Positions 7,513 to 46,751 of a DNA stretch of 50,735 bases are shown in pieces (the stretch's first letter is position 1; every line of letters starts with the position of its first letter). The translations under genes and the position numbers were made by a program. Source of the stretch: Oscillospiraceae bacterium (GTDB lineage: Bacteria; Bacillota; Clostridia; Oscillospirales; JAAYXM01); assembly GCA_017559985.1 (NCBI GenBank), contig JAFYPW010000028.1, positions 1 through 50,735 of the forward strand, in the 5' to 3' direction. A model generated the notes under the pieces. It had not been told where the DNA came from, searched no databases, and saw only the letters and a list, made by a program, of their open reading frames with translations.

Positions 7513-7540
7513 TATTTCAGAAATAAATAAGCGTTTTCTG

Positions 7541-7620
7541 CAACTGACGGATAAGTGGAGCACCACGGGAAGCGGAAAACTTTTTGGGGATTTTCCCCGA
7601 CTGAGGCCGACCGTCTGGGC
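7541..7620 (+). ncRNA. ZTP (pfl) riboswitch aptamer
   Basis: The leader carries the conserved parts of the ZTP/ZMP riboswitch. CTGACGG is at 7544-7550, a short GTGG-loop-CCAC stem at 7555-7566, then GGGAA. A variable hairpin (GGGGA/TCCCC, 7586-7598) is followed by the hallmark GCCGACCGTCTGGGC (7606-7620). GACGG can pair with CCGTC. The RNA senses ZMP/ZTP (AICAR phosphates), which accumulate when 10-formyl-THF is scarce. Known examples precede purE, purH, folD, fhs or glyA, and this one precedes a purE operon with two formyltransferases and fhs. The final GGGC is shared with the terminator stem, which gives a direct switch. Identification is from memory of the consensus, not a covariance search. 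Confidence 0.9.
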
Positions 7621-7658
7621 ACATTTAACTCCCCGTTGAGTTAAGTGCGCCCTTTTTT
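7617..7658 (+). terminator. Riboswitch-controlled terminator
   Basis: The arm 7617-7631 pairs with 7638-7652 over 15 positions, with one mismatch and one wobble, and TTTTTT follows at 7653-7658. The first four bases (GGGC) also belong to the aptamer core. Ligand binding should therefore hold them and block the terminator, an on-switch as in other ZTP riboswitches. Confidence 0.88.
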
Positions 7659-40449: not shown

Positions 40450-41167
40450 GCTGTTCAACAAGCAGTCTTTCCTTAGGGGAAAGAGGGGCTTTGTCGAGCA
40501 TATCGGGGCGTTTTTTGAACGTCCTGATAATGGACTGCTCGCGCCGCCACTTTTTTATGTTTGCGTGATGTCCGGAAAGAAGAATCTCCGGTACTTCGCG
40601 CTCGTGCCAGACCGCGGGGCGAGTATATTGCGGATATTCAAGAAGACCGTCAAAGTGGCTTTCTTCTGAAAAACACTCTTCATCGGAAAGAACTCCGGGA
40701 AGCATTCTTGCTATTGCGTCGGTTATTGCCATTGCGGGAATTTCGCCACCGGTGAGAACAAAGTCTCCGATGGAAATTTCTTCATCGACACACTCTTCGA
40801 TAAAACGCTCGTCTATTCCTTCGTAATGGCCGCAGACGAGAATGAGGTGTGAATATCCTGAAGAAAGTTTTTTTGCCTTTTCCTGGTTAAATACTGAACC
40901 CTGAGGGGACATATATATCGTATAGGCGTCGGGCGATTTTGACTTGATTTCTGCCCAGCAGTTATAAAGCGCATCGGCATACATAACCATACCCATACCG
41001 CCGCCGTAAGGATAGTCGTCAACCTGCTTCTGTTTGTTCTTTGTAAAGTCACGAATCTGATAATATCCGATTGAAAGCTTTCCTTCCCGGCGTGCCCGAC
41101 CTATAATGCTTTCGTTCATCATCGCGTCACAAGCTTCGGGAAAGAGTGTCATTATATCAATTTTCAT
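40427..41167 (-). CDS. trmD: tRNA (guanine-37-N1)-methyltransferase TrmD
   Basis: TrmD methylates G37 of tRNAs to prevent frameshifting, using SAM in a trefoil-knot fold. The 246-residue product has MKIDIMTLFPE at the start, YPYGGGMGMVM near residue 57 and the knot motif CGHYEGIDERFIEECVDEE, then SIGDFVLTGGE near 110-141. It is the last gene of the ylxM-ffh operon and overlaps rimM by 11 bases. rplS, which follows trmD in many bacteria, is absent here; the M50 gene converges instead. Confidence 0.97.
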   Translation of the reverse strand: MKIDIMTLFPEACDAMMNESIIGRARREGKLSIGYYQIRDFTKNKQKQVDDYPYGGGMGMVMYADALYNCWAEIKSKSPDAYTIYMSPQGSVFNQEKAKKLSSGYSHLILVCGHYEGIDERFIEECVDEEISIGDFVLTGGEIPAMAITDAIARMLPGVLSDEECFSEESHFDGLLEYPQYTRPAVWHEREVPEILLSGHHANIKKWRREQSIIRTFKKRPDMLDKAPLSPKERLLVEQLKNEPDA

Positions 41168-41669
41168 CGGGTTCGCCGCCTTTCTCGGTCTTCATACCGG
41201 GAATTGGTGAAACATACATTATTTTGTTGTCAAGATCTACTTCACGGATAAATTCGCCGACAGCGGGAATCATATATTCTTCATTGCCGCGAACAACATA
41301 AACATCGTTTGCGGGAAGGGAGAGGACTTCAAAAAGTTTTCCGAGTGTTTCGCCGTCACGGTCGACGACGGTCATTCCTTCGAGGTCGCGGATAAAGTAT
41401 GAGCCTTCTGAAAGCTCAACCTCGTCACGGTCAACAAAAACACACTTATTCCTGAGCTTTTCAGCTTCGTTTATATTGTTTATGCCCTCGAGCTTTAAGA
41501 GAACGCAGGTTTTGTGCACACGGGCTTTTTCAATGTTATATGCCAAGTTGTTTATATATACAACGTCAAAATCACACAGAAAGTCAACGGTGTCGCTCCA
41601 TGGCTGGACTTTCACTTCACTGTATACGCTGTGTGTGTTGACGATTTTTCCGGCTTCAATTAAATTCAT
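41157..41669 (-). CDS. rimM: 16S rRNA processing protein RimM
   Basis: RimM binds ribosomal protein S19 and helps mature the head of the 30S subunit. The 170-residue product has the N-terminal RimM domain (AGKIVNTHSVYSEVKVQPW) and a C-terminal PRC-barrel domain with SYFIRDLEGMTVVD near residue 96 and the typical ending EYMIPAVGEFIREVDLDNKIMYV in two stretches. A GAGGTGAT ribosome binding site lies just upstream on the minus strand. It follows khpA and overlaps trmD. Confidence 0.95.
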   Translation of the reverse strand: MNLIEAGKIVNTHSVYSEVKVQPWSDTVDFLCDFDVVYINNLAYNIEKARVHKTCVLLKLEGINNINEAEKLRNKCVFVDRDEVELSEGSYFIRDLEGMTVVDRDGETLGKLFEVLSLPANDVYVVRGNEEYMIPAVGEFIREVDLDNKIMYVSPIPGMKTEKGGEPDEN

Positions 41670-41701
41670 AGTATCACCTCAGATAAGGTATGGTTATAAA
41701 T

Positions 41702-41730
41702 TCGGGGCTGTCAGAATTGGACAGCCCCGA
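41702..41730. other. Intercistronic hairpin between khpA and rimM
   Basis: TCGGGGCTGTC pairs perfectly with GACAGCCCCGA around a seven-base loop. No good T-run follows on either strand, so it may be a weak attenuator, a transcript-stabilising stem or an RNase site that adjusts rimM-trmD levels. Confidence 0.6.
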
Positions 41731-41737
41731 TATTAAA

Positions 41738-41968
41738 TCAGTCAAGAATGTCAACTGATACCTTGATATTATCTTTAAGCGCAGCAGCTTTGATAACTGT
41801 ACGAATTTCTTTTGCAATGCGACCGTGCTTTCCGATAACTTTGCCCATATCATCCGGAGCTACGCGAAGTTCGAGGACGAGCCCGTCTTCTTTTTCAACT
41901 TCCGTAACATTAACGGCATCAGGGTTTTCTACAAGGCTTTTTGCGATGTAAGTCAAAAGGTTTTTCAT
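41738..41968 (-). CDS. khpA: KH-domain RNA-binding protein KhpA
   Basis: KhpA is a small RNA-binding protein that often pairs with KhpB (Jag/EloR) and affects cell elongation or small-RNA control. The 76-residue product is essentially one KH domain, with the GxxG loop in GKVIGKHGRIAKEIR (about residues 42-56). It lies between rpsP and rimM, its standard position. Confidence 0.94.
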   Translation of the reverse strand: MKNLLTYIAKSLVENPDAVNVTEVEKEDGLVLELRVAPDDMGKVIGKHGRIAKEIRTVIKAAALKDNIKVSVDILD

Positions 41969-42006
41969 TTGTCTGTCACCTTTTCTCCGGTTTTACCGGT
42001 GGCAAT

Positions 42007-42249
42007 TTACTGAATGGCGCCTGTACGCTTCAAGAGAGATTTTACAGTATCTGTCGGCTGTGCACCATTCTTGATCCATTCAAGAGCGCGGTCTGTATCG
42101 ATCTTGATTTCAGCCGGTTCTGTAAGCGGGTTGTAAGTTCCGATCTCTTCAATGAATCTGCCGTCACGCGGGAATCTTGAATCAGCAACAACAACACGAT
42201 AGAACGGAGCTTTCTTTGCACCGATTCTGCGAAGTCTGATCTTAACCAT
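42007..42249 (-). CDS. rpsP: 30S ribosomal protein S16
   Basis: S16 is an early-assembling 30S protein. The 80-residue product matches the family: [20 protein letters not shown] at the start, [19 protein letters not shown] in the middle and [12 protein letters not shown] near the end. An AGGTG ribosome binding site lies just upstream. It is the third gene of the ylxM operon. Confidence 0.97.
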
Positions 42250-42305: not shown

Positions 42306-43670
42306 TTAGAAAGAAAAGGGGAATGAGCCGCTGCCGCCCATCCTTCTTGCTTTTCTTGACATTTGTTTTCCCATAGCTCCACTCGTCATCTGTTTCATCA
42401 TTTTTCTTGATGCTTCAAATTGCTTTAAGAGCTTGTTTACTTCTTCTACCGTAACTCCGCTTCCTGCCGCTATGCGTTTTTTGCGGCTGAAATTTATCTG
42501 AGAAGGATTGTCTCGCTCGTAGGGAGTCATTGAAGAGATTATTGCATCAAGACGGACGAGAGCGCGCTCGTCTATCTTTGCGCCTGCAAGAGTCTTCGAG
42601 TCAATTCCGGGAATCATTTTTATAAGGTCGGACATTGAGCCCATATTCTGCATCTGCTGCATTTGTTCGCGGAAATCGGAAAGGGTGAATGTGTTTTCGC
42701 GGATTTTGCGTTCGAGTTCAACGGCTTTCTTTTCATCAAAAGCCTGTTCTGCTTTTTCTATAAGAGAGAGAACATCGCCCATGCCGAGGATTCGTGATGC
42801 CATGCGTTCAGGATGAAATGCTTCGATGCCGTCGAGTTTTTCGCCCGTGCCGACAAATTTGATCGGTTTTCCTGTAACTGCGCGGACAGAAAGTGCTGCT
42901 CCGCCTCGTGCGTCGCCGTCAAGCTTTGTCATAAAAATACTGTCGATGCCGAGCGCTTCGTTGAAGGATGATGCCGTGCTTACGGCGTCCTGACCGCTCA
43001 TTGCATCAATAACAAGCATAATCTCGGTAGGGGAAACTTCACTTTTAATTGATTTGAGCTCGTTCATAAGCTCTTCGTCAATGTGAAGGCGGCCGGCTGT
43101 GTCAAGAAAAACAATGTCGTTTCCGTGCGCTTCTGCATGTGCTTTTGCAAGTTTTGCTATTTCCACGGGGGTTTTTCCTTCGGCTTTAAACACGGGTATA
43201 TCCAGTTGCGAACCCAAAACTTCCAGCTGTTTGATAGCTGCGGGTCTGTATATATCACATGCGACAAGTAACGGGCGCTTTGAAGCTGTCTTTTTAAGGT
43301 GGGATGCAAGTTTTGCTATGTTGGTTGTTTTACCCGCACCCTGAAGTCCGACAAACATAACTATTGTCGGGGGTTTTGGTGAAATATTTAATTTTGCGCT
43401 TTCGCCGCCAATAAGCGATGTAAGTTCTTCGTTTACAATCTTAACAAGCTGTTGGGCGGGATTGAGCCCTTCGAGAACTTCCGTTCCTACTGCGCGTTCG
43501 GAAACCTTTGCAACAAAGTCGCGGACGACCTTGAAGTTAACATCGGCTTCAAGTAATGCAAGCTTAATTTCTCGCATTGCATCCTTTACGTCGCGTTCTG
43601 TAAGGCGGCCTTTTGAACGGAGCTTTTTAAAGGTAGCGGAAATCTTGTCGGTAAGATTTTCAAAAGCCAT
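42306..43670 (-). CDS. ffh: Signal recognition particle protein Ffh
   Basis: Ffh binds signal sequences and SRP RNA and delivers ribosomes to FtsY at the membrane. The 454-residue product has an N domain and a G domain with GLQGAGKTTNIAKLA near residue 104, FLDTAGRLHID near 186 and TKLDGDARGG near 244. The C-terminal M domain is rich in Met and basic residues, with IPG and SRKKRIAAGSG. It follows ylxM directly in the usual order. Confidence 0.97.
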   Translation of the reverse strand: MAFENLTDKISATFKKLRSKGRLTERDVKDAMREIKLALLEADVNFKVVRDFVAKVSERAVGTEVLEGLNPAQQLVKIVNEELTSLIGGESAKLNISPKPPTIVMFVGLQGAGKTTNIAKLASHLKKTASKRPLLVACDIYRPAAIKQLEVLGSQLDIPVFKAEGKTPVEIAKLAKAHAEAHGNDIVFLDTAGRLHIDEELMNELKSIKSEVSPTEIMLVIDAMSGQDAVSTASSFNEALGIDSIFMTKLDGDARGGAALSVRAVTGKPIKFVGTGEKLDGIEAFHPERMASRILGMGDVLSLIEKAEQAFDEKKAVELERKIRENTFTLSDFREQMQQMQNMGSMSDLIKMIPGIDSKTLAGAKIDERALVRLDAIISSMTPYERDNPSQINFSRKKRIAAGSGVTVEEVNKLLKQFEASRKMMKQMTSGAMGKQMSRKARRMGGSGSFPFSF

Positions 43671-43692: not shown

Positions 43693-44058
43693 TCAGACAT
43701 CAAGTGCTTTTGCGCGGTCGATAATACCGTTTATGCAATTATCGAGTTCGGCATTTCTGTAGTTTGTGTCATTTATGAGCTTTATACGCTCGGCAGAGGA
43801 GACGATGCTTTTTACATCTTCGGAGAGCTTGCCAAATTTTTCGGCAAGACCGAGTTTTGACTCAAAATTGCGGAGAATTTCTTCGGAGCGTACGATGCTG
43901 TCGCGCACGCCCTGACGGGTGATTTCGAGGTGCTCTGCTATCTCGGCGAGAGAGAGATCCTCGTTATAGTAAAGGTCAAAGATTTCATGTTGTTTTTCCG
44001 TGAGGATATCGCCGTAAAAATCAAAGAGAAGTGTGAGCTCGAGTGAAACATTTCGCAT
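43693..44058 (-). CDS. ylxM: YlxM-family helix-turn-helix protein
   Basis: This 121-residue protein belongs to the YlxM/p13 family, found upstream of ffh and thought to assist the SRP pathway. It resembles sigma-factor region 4, with a helix-turn-helix in EIFDLYYNEDLSLAEIAEHL followed by TRQGVRDSI (about residues 24-53). Strong AAAGGAGG lies before the ATG on the minus strand. It is the first gene of the operon, with the promoter and two palindromes immediately upstream. Confidence 0.94.
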   Translation of the reverse strand: MRNVSLELTLLFDFYGDILTEKQHEIFDLYYNEDLSLAEIAEHLEITRQGVRDSIVRSEEILRNFESKLGLAEKFGKLSEDVKSIVSSAERIKLINDTNYRNAELDNCINGIIDRAKALDV

Positions 44059-44070
44059 AAAAACCCTCCT

Positions 44071-44094
44071 TTGTAAAGTTGCATAACTTTACAA
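44071..44094. promoter_or_regulatory. Perfect 10-base inverted repeat before ylxM (possible operator)
   Basis: TTGTAAAGTT and AACTTTACAA flank a GCAT spacer. The site lies just downstream of the minus-strand promoter, over the predicted transcription start and abutting the ylxM ribosome binding site. It could be a repressor site or an RNA stem at the 5' end of the message. Confidence 0.65.
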
Positions 44095-44111
44095 TATGGT
44101 ATTTTACCATA
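44095..44111. promoter_or_regulatory. Second palindrome covering the ylxM -10 box
   Basis: TATGGTA and TACCATA flank TTT. The site overlaps the -10 box of the minus-strand promoter (44101-44106) and touches the neighbouring palindrome, as expected for a repressor site. It has no recognised regulator. Confidence 0.5.
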
Positions 44112-44129
44112 AACTTTGCTTTGTGTCAA
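44101..44129 (-). promoter_or_regulatory. Vegetative promoter of the ylxM-ffh-rpsP-khpA-rimM-trmD operon
   Basis: On the minus strand, TTGACA (44129-44124) and TAAAAT (44106-44101) are 17 bases apart, with a TGG extension before the -10. Transcription should start near 44094. Confidence 0.87.
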
Positions 44130-44167: not shown

Positions 44168-44196
44168 TTGTAATGCTTAATAAATTTGTGTATAAT
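44168..44196 (+). promoter_or_regulatory. Probable promoter of the M16-lgt-folD operon
   Basis: TTGTAA (44168-44173) and TATAAT (44191-44196) are 17 bases apart. It is divergent from the ylxM promoter and about 40 bases before the first M16 gene. Confidence 0.7.
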
Positions 44197-44239
44197 AAAA
44201 GAAAATGAGTGCACAAAACGAAGGAGATATTGTTGCGTT

Positions 44240-45514
44240 ATGAAAATGACATATAAAGAGATACTTCCGGGAATAAATCTCCGTGTTATAGAAAGTGATG
44301 CATTTGAGACAAACTGCATTTCAATTCAGTTTGTCTCGGAAATAAATAATGAAACTGCATCAAAAATGACGCTCGTTCCGCGCGTTTTAAGACGTGGAAC
44401 GGTTAAGCATCCCGATATGGAATCACTTGCGGCCGAGCTTGATGAAATGTACGGCGCAAGGATAGAACCCGTTTCGAGAAAATATGGTGACATCATCTCC
44501 GGCGGCTTTGTGTGCGACTTTGTCGATCCTGAAAAAACACTTTTCGGAAGTGTTGTAAAGCTTCTTTCTGAAATTCTTGTCAAACCAAAGCTTTCAGATG
44601 GCATTTTCGTAGAAGAATATGTTGACGGTGAACGGACAAACCTTATAGACGAAATTAAATCGGAAATAAACAATAAGCTCTCGTATGCTCACAAAAAAGC
44701 GGTTGAGATTATGTTTAAGAACACTCCTTATGCAGTGAGTGAACTCGGAACGGAAGAAGAGGCAGAAAAAATAGATTCCGCTTCACTTTATAAATATTAT
44801 AAAAAGCTTGTCTGCGAAGCTCCGTGCGAAATTTTCTTCTGTGGCAACACGTCGTTTGATGAGGTGAAAAGTGCGTTTTTGCATATGTTTTCATCCTTGC
44901 CGGCGCGAAAGGGTACTAAGGTCAAATCGGGAAAACCCATTTATTCGGAGCTTGTGAGAAAAAAAGAACGGCTTGACATTTCGCAGGCAAATCTTCTTGT
45001 GGGAATGTATAACGAAAATGCAGATATATATGCTTCGAAGCTTTTGTGCGCAGTAATCGGCGGAGGAACATGCTCAAAGCTTTTTGTTAACGTAAGAGAA
45101 AAGCAATCGCTCTGTTATTTTACCGGAACGATGTATGATTCGTTTGAAAAATCAATGTTTCTCTATTGCGGTATAGATCCGAAAAATGCAAAAATTGCTG
45201 AGAAGGCTGTTCTTGATGAGTTTGAAAACTGTGTTCTTGCACAGATAACGGATGAAGAGATTCACAACGCAAAAAAGGGTATGATTGACGATATAATCAC
45301 AGTCGACGATTCACTTTTTTCGATGGAAGCTTTCTGGCTTCGTGCGGCGCTTTTAGGAGATGAGAGAACGCCGTCTGAAATAGCTGCTTATATAAGAGAG
45401 CTTGACGGCGAAATGCTTTCGGACGTTGCGCGAGGATTTAAAACATCTGTGGTTTATTTGCTGACAGGATTGGAGGAGAGCGAAAATGCTGCAAAACTTT
45501 TGCCCCAAGCTTAA
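44240..45514 (+). CDS. M16-family peptidase-like protein without zinc motif (YmfF-type subunit)
   Basis: This 424-residue protein has the fold pattern of M16 (insulinase-type) peptidases. The early LAAELDEMYGARIEPVS stretch stands where HxxEH would be, so the protein is unlikely to be catalytic. The C-terminal half keeps the glycine-rich VIGGGTCSKLF and the REKQSLCYF motif (Arg/Tyr pair) that shapes the substrate pocket. It overlaps the next gene, a true HxxEH protein, by 29 bases. The two should form a heterodimer like the alpha/beta mitochondrial processing peptidase or Bacillus YmfF-YmfH. ATG 44240 follows AAGGAG by a rather long 13 bases. A perfect 11-base hairpin lies inside codons 23-33. 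Confidence 0.87.
   Translation: MKMTYKEILPGINLRVIESDAFETNCISIQFVSEINNETASKMTLVPRVLRRGTVKHPDMESLAAELDEMYGARIEPVSRKYGDIISGGFVCDFVDPEKTLFGSVVKLLSEILVKPKLSDGIFVEEYVDGERTNLIDEIKSEINNKLSYAHKKAVEIMFKNTPYAVSELGTEEEAEKIDSASLYKYYKKLVCEAPCEIFFCGNTSFDEVKSAFLHMFSSLPARKGTKVKSGKPIYSELVRKKERLDISQANLLVGMYNENADIYASKLLCAVIGGGTCSKLFVNVREKQSLCYFTGTMYDSFEKSMFLYCGIDPKNAKIAEKAVLDEFENCVLAQITDEEIHNAKKGMIDDIITVDDSLFSMEAFWLRAALLGDERTPSEIAAYIRELDGEMLSDVARGFKTSVVYLLTGLEESENAAKLLPQA
44306..44337. repeat. Perfect 11-base inverted repeat within the first M16 gene
   Basis: GAGACAAACTG and CAGTTTGTCTC flank a ten-base loop, inside codons 23-33 of the gene. Confidence 0.6.
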
Positions 45515-46751
45515 TCAGAAGATGATATCCCATACCTGCGCAAACGGATTAAAGATATGTATTTTTCCTAAAAAAGGATTCAAGCGCGCGTATGCAATGC
45601 TTGCCGTAAATTACGGCTCAATAGACATATCCTTTGATACTGACGGGAAAATGTATACTTCGCCGCTCGGCGTCGCTCACTTTCTTGAACATAAGGTGTT
45701 TGAACAGCCTGACGGCGGGAATGCGCTTCAAGCTTTCGCGCAGACGGGAGCCTCGCCAAACGCCTTCACCAGTAAAACAAAGACGGCGTATTATTTCTCC
45801 GGTACGGAAAAATTTATGCGCAATCTTGAAATTCTTTTGGGTTTTGTAACCACACCGTATTTCACGGCGGAGAACGTTAAAAAAGAGCAGGGAATAATCG
45901 GCCAGGAAATCAGTATGGTCAACGACCGCCCCGGCTGGAGGGTTTATGAAAACCTTATGTCGGCAATGTACGCCGTACACCCTGCAAAGGACTCTATTAT
46001 AGGTACGGTGGAGAGTATCTCTGAAATAACGCGTGATGTGCTTTTTAAGTGCTATAATACATTTTATGTTCCGTCAAATATGGCTTTGTGTGTCGCGGGT
46101 GATGTCTCTGCGGAAAAGGTTATTGCTGCCGCCGAATCTCTTCTTCCAAAAGAAAGGGTGGCACTTCCCGAACGGGATTACGGTTTGGAACCATGCGAGG
46201 TTGTCGACAGACGTGTGGTGCAGAAACTAGAAACGTCGATGCCGCAGTTTTCAATAGGTTCAAAATTTGCATTCAAGACAACCGGTGCAGAGGGGATGCG
46301 AAACAGAATTGTTGCAGAACTTGCAGCAGATATTCTGGGTGGCGGGTCATCGCCGTTGTATAATAAGCTTTATAGCGACGGAATGATTACGGCGGATTTT
46401 GACTGTGAGGCTATGGTTCTTCCCGGAAGCATTGCTCTTGTTCTTTCCGGTGAAAGCCGTGACCCCGACGCTGTCCTCACAAAGGTTTGCCTTGCTGCCG
46501 AAAGGTTGTCAAAGGATATTGACAACGCATATTTTGACAGGTGCAGGAAAGCATATCTCGGTCTTAAACTACGTTCTCTTGATAAGGTCAGAGCACTCTG
46601 TCAGGAGCAGGCGGAAGCCGTGTTTGCAGGATACGATTTTCTTGATAGTTTTGAGATTATAAACGAAATTACTCCGGATGAGATTTCGTGTTTTATATCG
46701 AAGTTTTTTAAAGAAGAAACGACGTCCGTTTCAATAGTTGCGGGTGAGTAG
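45486..46751 (+). CDS. M16-family zinc peptidase (YmfH-type catalytic subunit)
   Basis: This 421-residue protein carries the inverted zinc motif HFLEH (residues 65-69) with the third ligand likely in EQGIIGQEISM about 75 residues later, and LGGGSSPLYNKLY in the second half. It is the probable catalytic partner of the preceding M16-like protein. ATG 45486 follows GGAGGAG within the end of the previous gene, which suggests balanced synthesis. No signal peptide is seen, so it is probably cytoplasmic. The natural substrate is not known. Confidence 0.9.
   Translation: MLQNFCPKLNQKMISHTCANGLKICIFPKKGFKRAYAMLAVNYGSIDISFDTDGKMYTSPLGVAHFLEHKVFEQPDGGNALQAFAQTGASPNAFTSKTKTAYYFSGTEKFMRNLEILLGFVTTPYFTAENVKKEQGIIGQEISMVNDRPGWRVYENLMSAMYAVHPAKDSIIGTVESISEITRDVLFKCYNTFYVPSNMALCVAGDVSAEKVIAAAESLLPKERVALPERDYGLEPCEVVDRRVVQKLETSMPQFSIGSKFAFKTTGAEGMRNRIVAELAADILGGGSSPLYNKLYSDGMITADFDCEAMVLPGSIALVLSGESRDPDAVLTKVCLAAERLSKDIDNAYFDRCRKAYLGLKLRSLDKVRALCQEQAEAVFAGYDFLDSFEIINEITPDEISCFISKFFKEETTSVSIVAGE

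Follow-up and report, generated by a model that had tools for sequence, protein, structure and literature searches.

Known roles of YlxM and the layout of the locus

In Gram-positive bacteria, YlxM is known as an accessory protein of the SRP, and in Streptococcus mutans it binds Ffh and the small cytoplasmic RNA, according to PMC8546722. There, the family is described as an Ffh- and scRNA-binding part of the SRP, whereas the present analysis concerns it as a putative DNA binder. In Bacillus subtilis, a promoter P1 is reported upstream of ylxM in an excerpt of PMC10100781. On the whole, our literature search, to whose scope Williams et al. 2014 on S. mutans YlxM does not belong, found no operator, autoregulation or DNA target described for YlxM, and the accessible portions of PMC8546722, PMC8637298, PMC4993169, PMC5344976, PMC8595059 and PMC10100781 mention no ylxM operator. 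This agrees with the initial annotation of the DNA studied here, which knew of no such operator for ylxM-ffh operons.

KorA and ArdK are autogenous helix-turn-helix repressors with a palindromic operator. They are like the present case in that a helix-turn-helix protein is combined with a palindrome at its own promoter, and both appear in the fold search with YlxM; however, they belong to other families, and here the site is widely conserved and placed at an operon for SRP and ribosome maturation. Region 4 of sigma factors, as solved on the -35 element (1ku7, 2h27, 6jhe), has a similar helix-turn-helix, and the half-site CTTKACA reported below resembles its target TTGACA. It differs in that YlxM, a stand-alone protein whose C-terminal part is long and helical, would read a pair of inverted half-sites and not one -35 box within the holoenzyme.

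The window, that is, the whole stretch of 50,735 nt analysed here (contig JAFYPW010000028.1 of an Oscillospiraceae bacterium), carries the following features at this locus:

41157-42249, minus strand: frames that we take to be rpsP, a KH protein gene and rimM
42306-43670, minus strand: ffh (SRP54), second gene of the operon, immediately after ylxM; a reading frame, annotated after ylxM in named relatives
43693-44058, minus strand: ylxM (UPF0122, PF04297), encoding a sigma-region-4-like helix-turn-helix protein, the proposed autorepressor
44071-44094, no strand assigned: full inverted repeat TTGTAAAGTT-GCAT-AACTTTACAA, 10 + 10 bases, 100% complementary, 4-nt spacer
44072-44093, minus strand: core of the putative operator, TGTAAAG-N8-CTTTACA, with half-sites 44072-44078 and 44087-44093
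44095-44111, no strand assigned: second palindrome TATGGTA-TAT-TACCATA over the -10 box, 7 + 7 bases, 3-nt spacer
44101-44129, minus strand: predicted sigma-A type promoter by consensus match, TTGACA-17-TAAAAT, with TG before the -10 box

The assignment of the three frames after ffh agrees with the B. subtilis operon, as far as an excerpt of PMC8637298 describes it. The predicted ylxM promoter, which runs from 44129 to 44101, matches 11 of 12 consensus bases; the number of promoter-like sites in the region, three, is not above chance (shuffles give a mean of 2.1, sd 1.4). The initial annotation had described a perfect 10-base inverted repeat with the spacer GCAT, covering the predicted transcription start and touching the ribosome binding site of ylxM, and both statements are borne out: the arms are fully complementary, and the repeat ends just before AAGGAGG of ylxM, directly abutting it. 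Since six bases separate the -10 box from the 10-base arm, transcription is expected to start at the edge of the palindrome.

The second, 7-base palindrome that had been noted over the -10 box is indeed present, but it is not conserved in genomes of the same genus: all seven arm pairs are formed in the window, versus 5, 4, 4 and 6 of 7 in four such genomes. As an operator it is therefore rejected, and it has the look of an extended -10 box whose symmetry in the window is accidental.

Conservation of the larger palindrome upstream of ylxM

The order-level set of regions upstream of ylxM comes from the nearest 98 genomes, 95 of them with ylxM, the window included. The class- and phylum-level sets were at first the best-scoring ylxM matches, with 68 and 70 loci used, the window and one further genome (G020) having been taken out of the class set as already present in the order set; 20 loci from the low-scoring end of the ylxM matches were added, one of which has just 28 bases upstream. 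Named organisms are represented by chromosome-like records of a plasmid collection, 7 of 8 being used and a second Listeria record left out. The first alignment already made the same arms visible in nearly all order-level genomes, and one uniform rule was applied to all sets: TGTNAAG, a spacer of 7 or 8, and CTTNACA, with 12 fixed bases, within at most 260 bases upstream.

With at most one mismatch in the 12 fixed bases, the site is found in 90 of 95 order-level loci (window included), 58 of 68 at class level, 69 of 70 at phylum level and 5 of 7 named organisms, so the larger palindrome is kept in the relatives. As controls at the same ylxM loci, the mirrored (backward) motif gives 0 of 240 and dinucleotide shuffles give 2 of 1200. 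By its conservation, the larger palindrome is far above chance. When spacers from 4 to 11 were allowed, the sites with at most one mismatch used 7 and 8 only. What is conserved is a pair of 7-base arms set 8 (or 7) bases apart, and the 10-base arms of the window are a local extension, whose additional inner and outer bases vary as letters among the relatives. Among the 20 weakest ylxM matches, the site is present in 9 when one mismatch is tolerated and in 16 when two are, against 0 and 1 of 20 for the mirror motif; the other 11 fail the one-mismatch rule.

Among the named records, the 12 fixed bases are all present in Monoglobus, Acetoanaerobium, Subdoligranulum, Bacillus velezensis and Fusobacterium vincentii, the last being a site-bearing case outside Bacillota, and an ffh match follows ylxM in all seven. 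ylxM occurs without the site in one Listeria monocytogenes and one Limosilactobacillus fermentum record, as well as in three genomes of one genus (L264, L266, L277). In some loci, among them L135, L284, L372 and L377, both arms are changed alike, for example to TGTAAAC...GTTTACA or AGTAAAG...CTTTACT, which could possibly reflect a shifted specificity of the protein.

Position on the promoter, and reading as DNA or as RNA

Promoters and starts in the relatives are consensus predictions, called for 227 of 234 sites. By these predictions, the site begins no earlier than the expected start in 166 of the 227 loci; in 24 it begins close to the -10 box, with the expected start inside the left arm; and in 32 the -35 box is assigned to the right arm, which places the site outside the predicted RNA. 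Four of these 32 (L184, L262, L265, L298) look doubtful because the -10 box runs into the likely start codon, and L144 has a poor left arm. The other five loci comprise two odd overlaps and three (L026, L027, L031) whose best site is upstream of the -35 box, each of the three having a further one-mismatch site at the start. Position 4 of the right arm is G in 31 of the 32 loci of the -35-box group, as a -35 box needs, versus just 19 of 190 in the groups of 166 and 24, where it is mostly T. In some loci, such as L145, L199, L271 and L285, a good site on the -35 box is accompanied by another at the start; with two mismatches allowed, a second site is counted in 43 of 240 loci, weak second sites included.

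Most of the information in the aligned sites falls in the 7-base arms, where the same letters are kept at six of seven positions, and the A/T-rich centre pairs less than expected. Pairing is above expectation at arm position 4 (0.67 vs 0.49) and at the first outer pair (0.48 vs 0.26), and below it at the innermost spacer pairs (0.26 and 0.22 vs 0.38 and 0.41).

These observations bear on whether the palindrome works in the mRNA, as a 5' hairpin that would make the transcript more stable or control access to the ylxM ribosome binding site. In the window the site could be transcribed and the stem can form at the extreme 5' end of the RNA, touching the ribosome binding site; the 69-nt leader with this stem folds at -13.3 kcal/mol, and the above-expected pairing at arm position 4 and just beyond the arms would fit a stem as well as a dimer site. 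However, the fold has a z of just -1.45, with 16 of 200 shuffles equally stable, and no Rfam match over threshold is found at the palindrome. An element of a structured RNA leader should lie inside the transcript, whereas in a number of relatives, the two groups above, the site overlaps the predicted -35 box or is cut by the predicted start. Furthermore, the distance from site to start codon varies from about 8 to more than 100 bases, and the arms keep fixed letters with under-complementary innermost spacer pairs. The weak fold, the missing Rfam match, the promoter positions and the pairing pattern together disfavour a hairpin as the main explanation, which we consider very improbable, and with it the translational control that the initial annotation had held in reserve. 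As a whole, the findings point to a palindrome read as DNA by a protein, not as RNA.

YlxM as the probable binder of its own operator

As far as sequence comparison can tell, the palindrome probably serves the ylxM-ffh operon as a DNA operator, with YlxM, which would repress its own operon, as the most likely binder. A conserved palindrome overlaps the predicted promoter of the regulator's own gene, and the site is lacking where ylxM is lacking: in none of the four ylxM-less genomes with a complete ffh (G156, G213, G260, G298; a small sample from three families, two of the genomes belonging to one genus) is it found within 700 bases upstream of ffh, the best matches having 3 or 4 mismatches. 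The site thus follows ylxM and not ffh. Promoter-like sequence is seen by eye before ffh in 3 of the 4. Left out of this set were G008, G028, G036 and G165, which have no full-length ffh match, and G279, in which the region before ffh (L344) resembles a ylxM-like tail. No relative of ylxM came up among the viral contigs that were scanned.

The copies of the motif elsewhere were also inspected. TGTNAAG-N7/8-CTTNACA occurs 8 times in the window's own genome, once at ylxM, six times within frames of at least 237 codons and once in a terminator-like hairpin, so that only the ylxM copy is a promoter site outside a long frame. Among 48 other copies from the own and other genomes, which are those that came with a locus and hence a subset of all matches, 37 lie within open frames of at least 100 codons; a promoter score of at least 10 is reached by 2 of the 48, both inside frames of more than 500 codons, versus all 22 examined ylxM copies. 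A wider regulon is rejected on these grounds. The hairpin copy, TGTCAAGGTTTTAACCTTGACA (L249, around 1500, outside long frames), looks like an intrinsic terminator and not an operator. In L080 and L168, motif copies fall in a GVK.IIFTD stretch of what is presumably a histidine-biosynthesis-like gene, a coding coincidence that adds spacer-8 matches.

The protein itself is a clear member of UPF0122, with 92.1 bits to the Pfam profile (curated cut-off 22.7), a gene adjoining ffh, and the solved relatives 1xsv and 1s7o. Family members occur in 111 of the 118 genomes sampled at class level and in 113 of the 119 at phylum level, weak matches included. Its description as a sigma-region-4-like helix-turn-helix protein stands: Sigma70_r4 scores 35.7 bits, above its cut-off, and residues 10-77 of the AlphaFold2 model (mean pLDDT 95.2) superimpose on region 4 of Thermus sigma-A with -35 DNA (1ku7) at Z 9.4 and rmsd 1.9 over 66 residues, a Z which, being below about 13, may by the comparison tool's warning reflect a common helical arrangement. 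The best fold matches are the two solved UPF0122 proteins; in Foldseek, UPF0122 entries alone pass E 0.001 and sigma domains appear from E 0.16, and the missing of a family from the fold-search lists was given no weight as evidence. The recognition helix TRQGVRD aligns with TRERIRQ of the genome's best sigma-region-4 match, and R48, Q49, V51 and D53 are nearly invariant. Residue 52 correlates with arm position 4, but lineage alone could cause this, and the apparent coevolution is set aside.

We infer YlxM as the binder, a dimer as its binding form, since the site is symmetric, and repression as the effect. Each of the two sigma-region-4-like recognition helices of a YlxM dimer would contact one of the inverted half-sites CTTKACA, which resemble the -35 hexamer TTGACA and are spaced 8 (sometimes 7) bases apart; such a near copy is the sequence to be expected for a sigma-4-like helix. 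From a position at the transcription start or over the -35 box, YlxM would keep RNA polymerase off, and the repression would hold the operon, with YlxM, Ffh and the genes for ribosome maturation, at a defined level. Self-regulation, which had been called conceivable, is thus well supported by comparative evidence, with the binding putative, and the conserved site offers a candidate DNA target for the YlxM helix-turn-helix. Given the SRP role, action on DNA may come second for YlxM, and some lineages may have lost it.

That YlxM binding to the site is inferred and that its documented role is in the SRP would leave room for another conserved regulator using the same operator. We regard this as rather unlikely: no other convincing promoter copy occurs among the 48 examined, ffh is without the site in the four ylxM-less genomes, and the half-sites resemble the target of a sigma-4-like helix. 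A position at the transcription start or on the -35 box is usual for repression. A YlxM that instead activates the promoter, or switches it between states, would fit the two sites of some loci and the differing position of the site on the promoter; this typical location of a repressor site, and the many promoters here that are near consensus, make it an unlikely reading, slightly behind the foregoing one.

Beyond autorepression by YlxM, one may tentatively think of it as a widespread SRP sensor, a repressor derived from sigma region 4, where free YlxM represses and YlxM captured by Ffh and SRP RNA cannot; we hold this to be possible, though less likely than not being so. If true, a high SRP demand would lead to more Ffh and ribosome-maturation proteins being made, and YlxM would be a sigma region 4 turned against the -35 box that it once read. 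How these cells control the level of their protein-targeting particle can then be examined directly with a single short DNA fragment and a single purified protein.

Divergent from ylxM, two plus-strand frames at 44186-46751 resemble an M16 peptidase pair. A plus-strand promoter match at 44168-44196 (10 of 12) may serve the divergent gene, and a similar divergent frame is seen beside ylxM in loci L063-L066. Elsewhere in the window, a ZMP/ZTP riboswitch at 7530-7627 on the plus strand is the only Rfam match over threshold.
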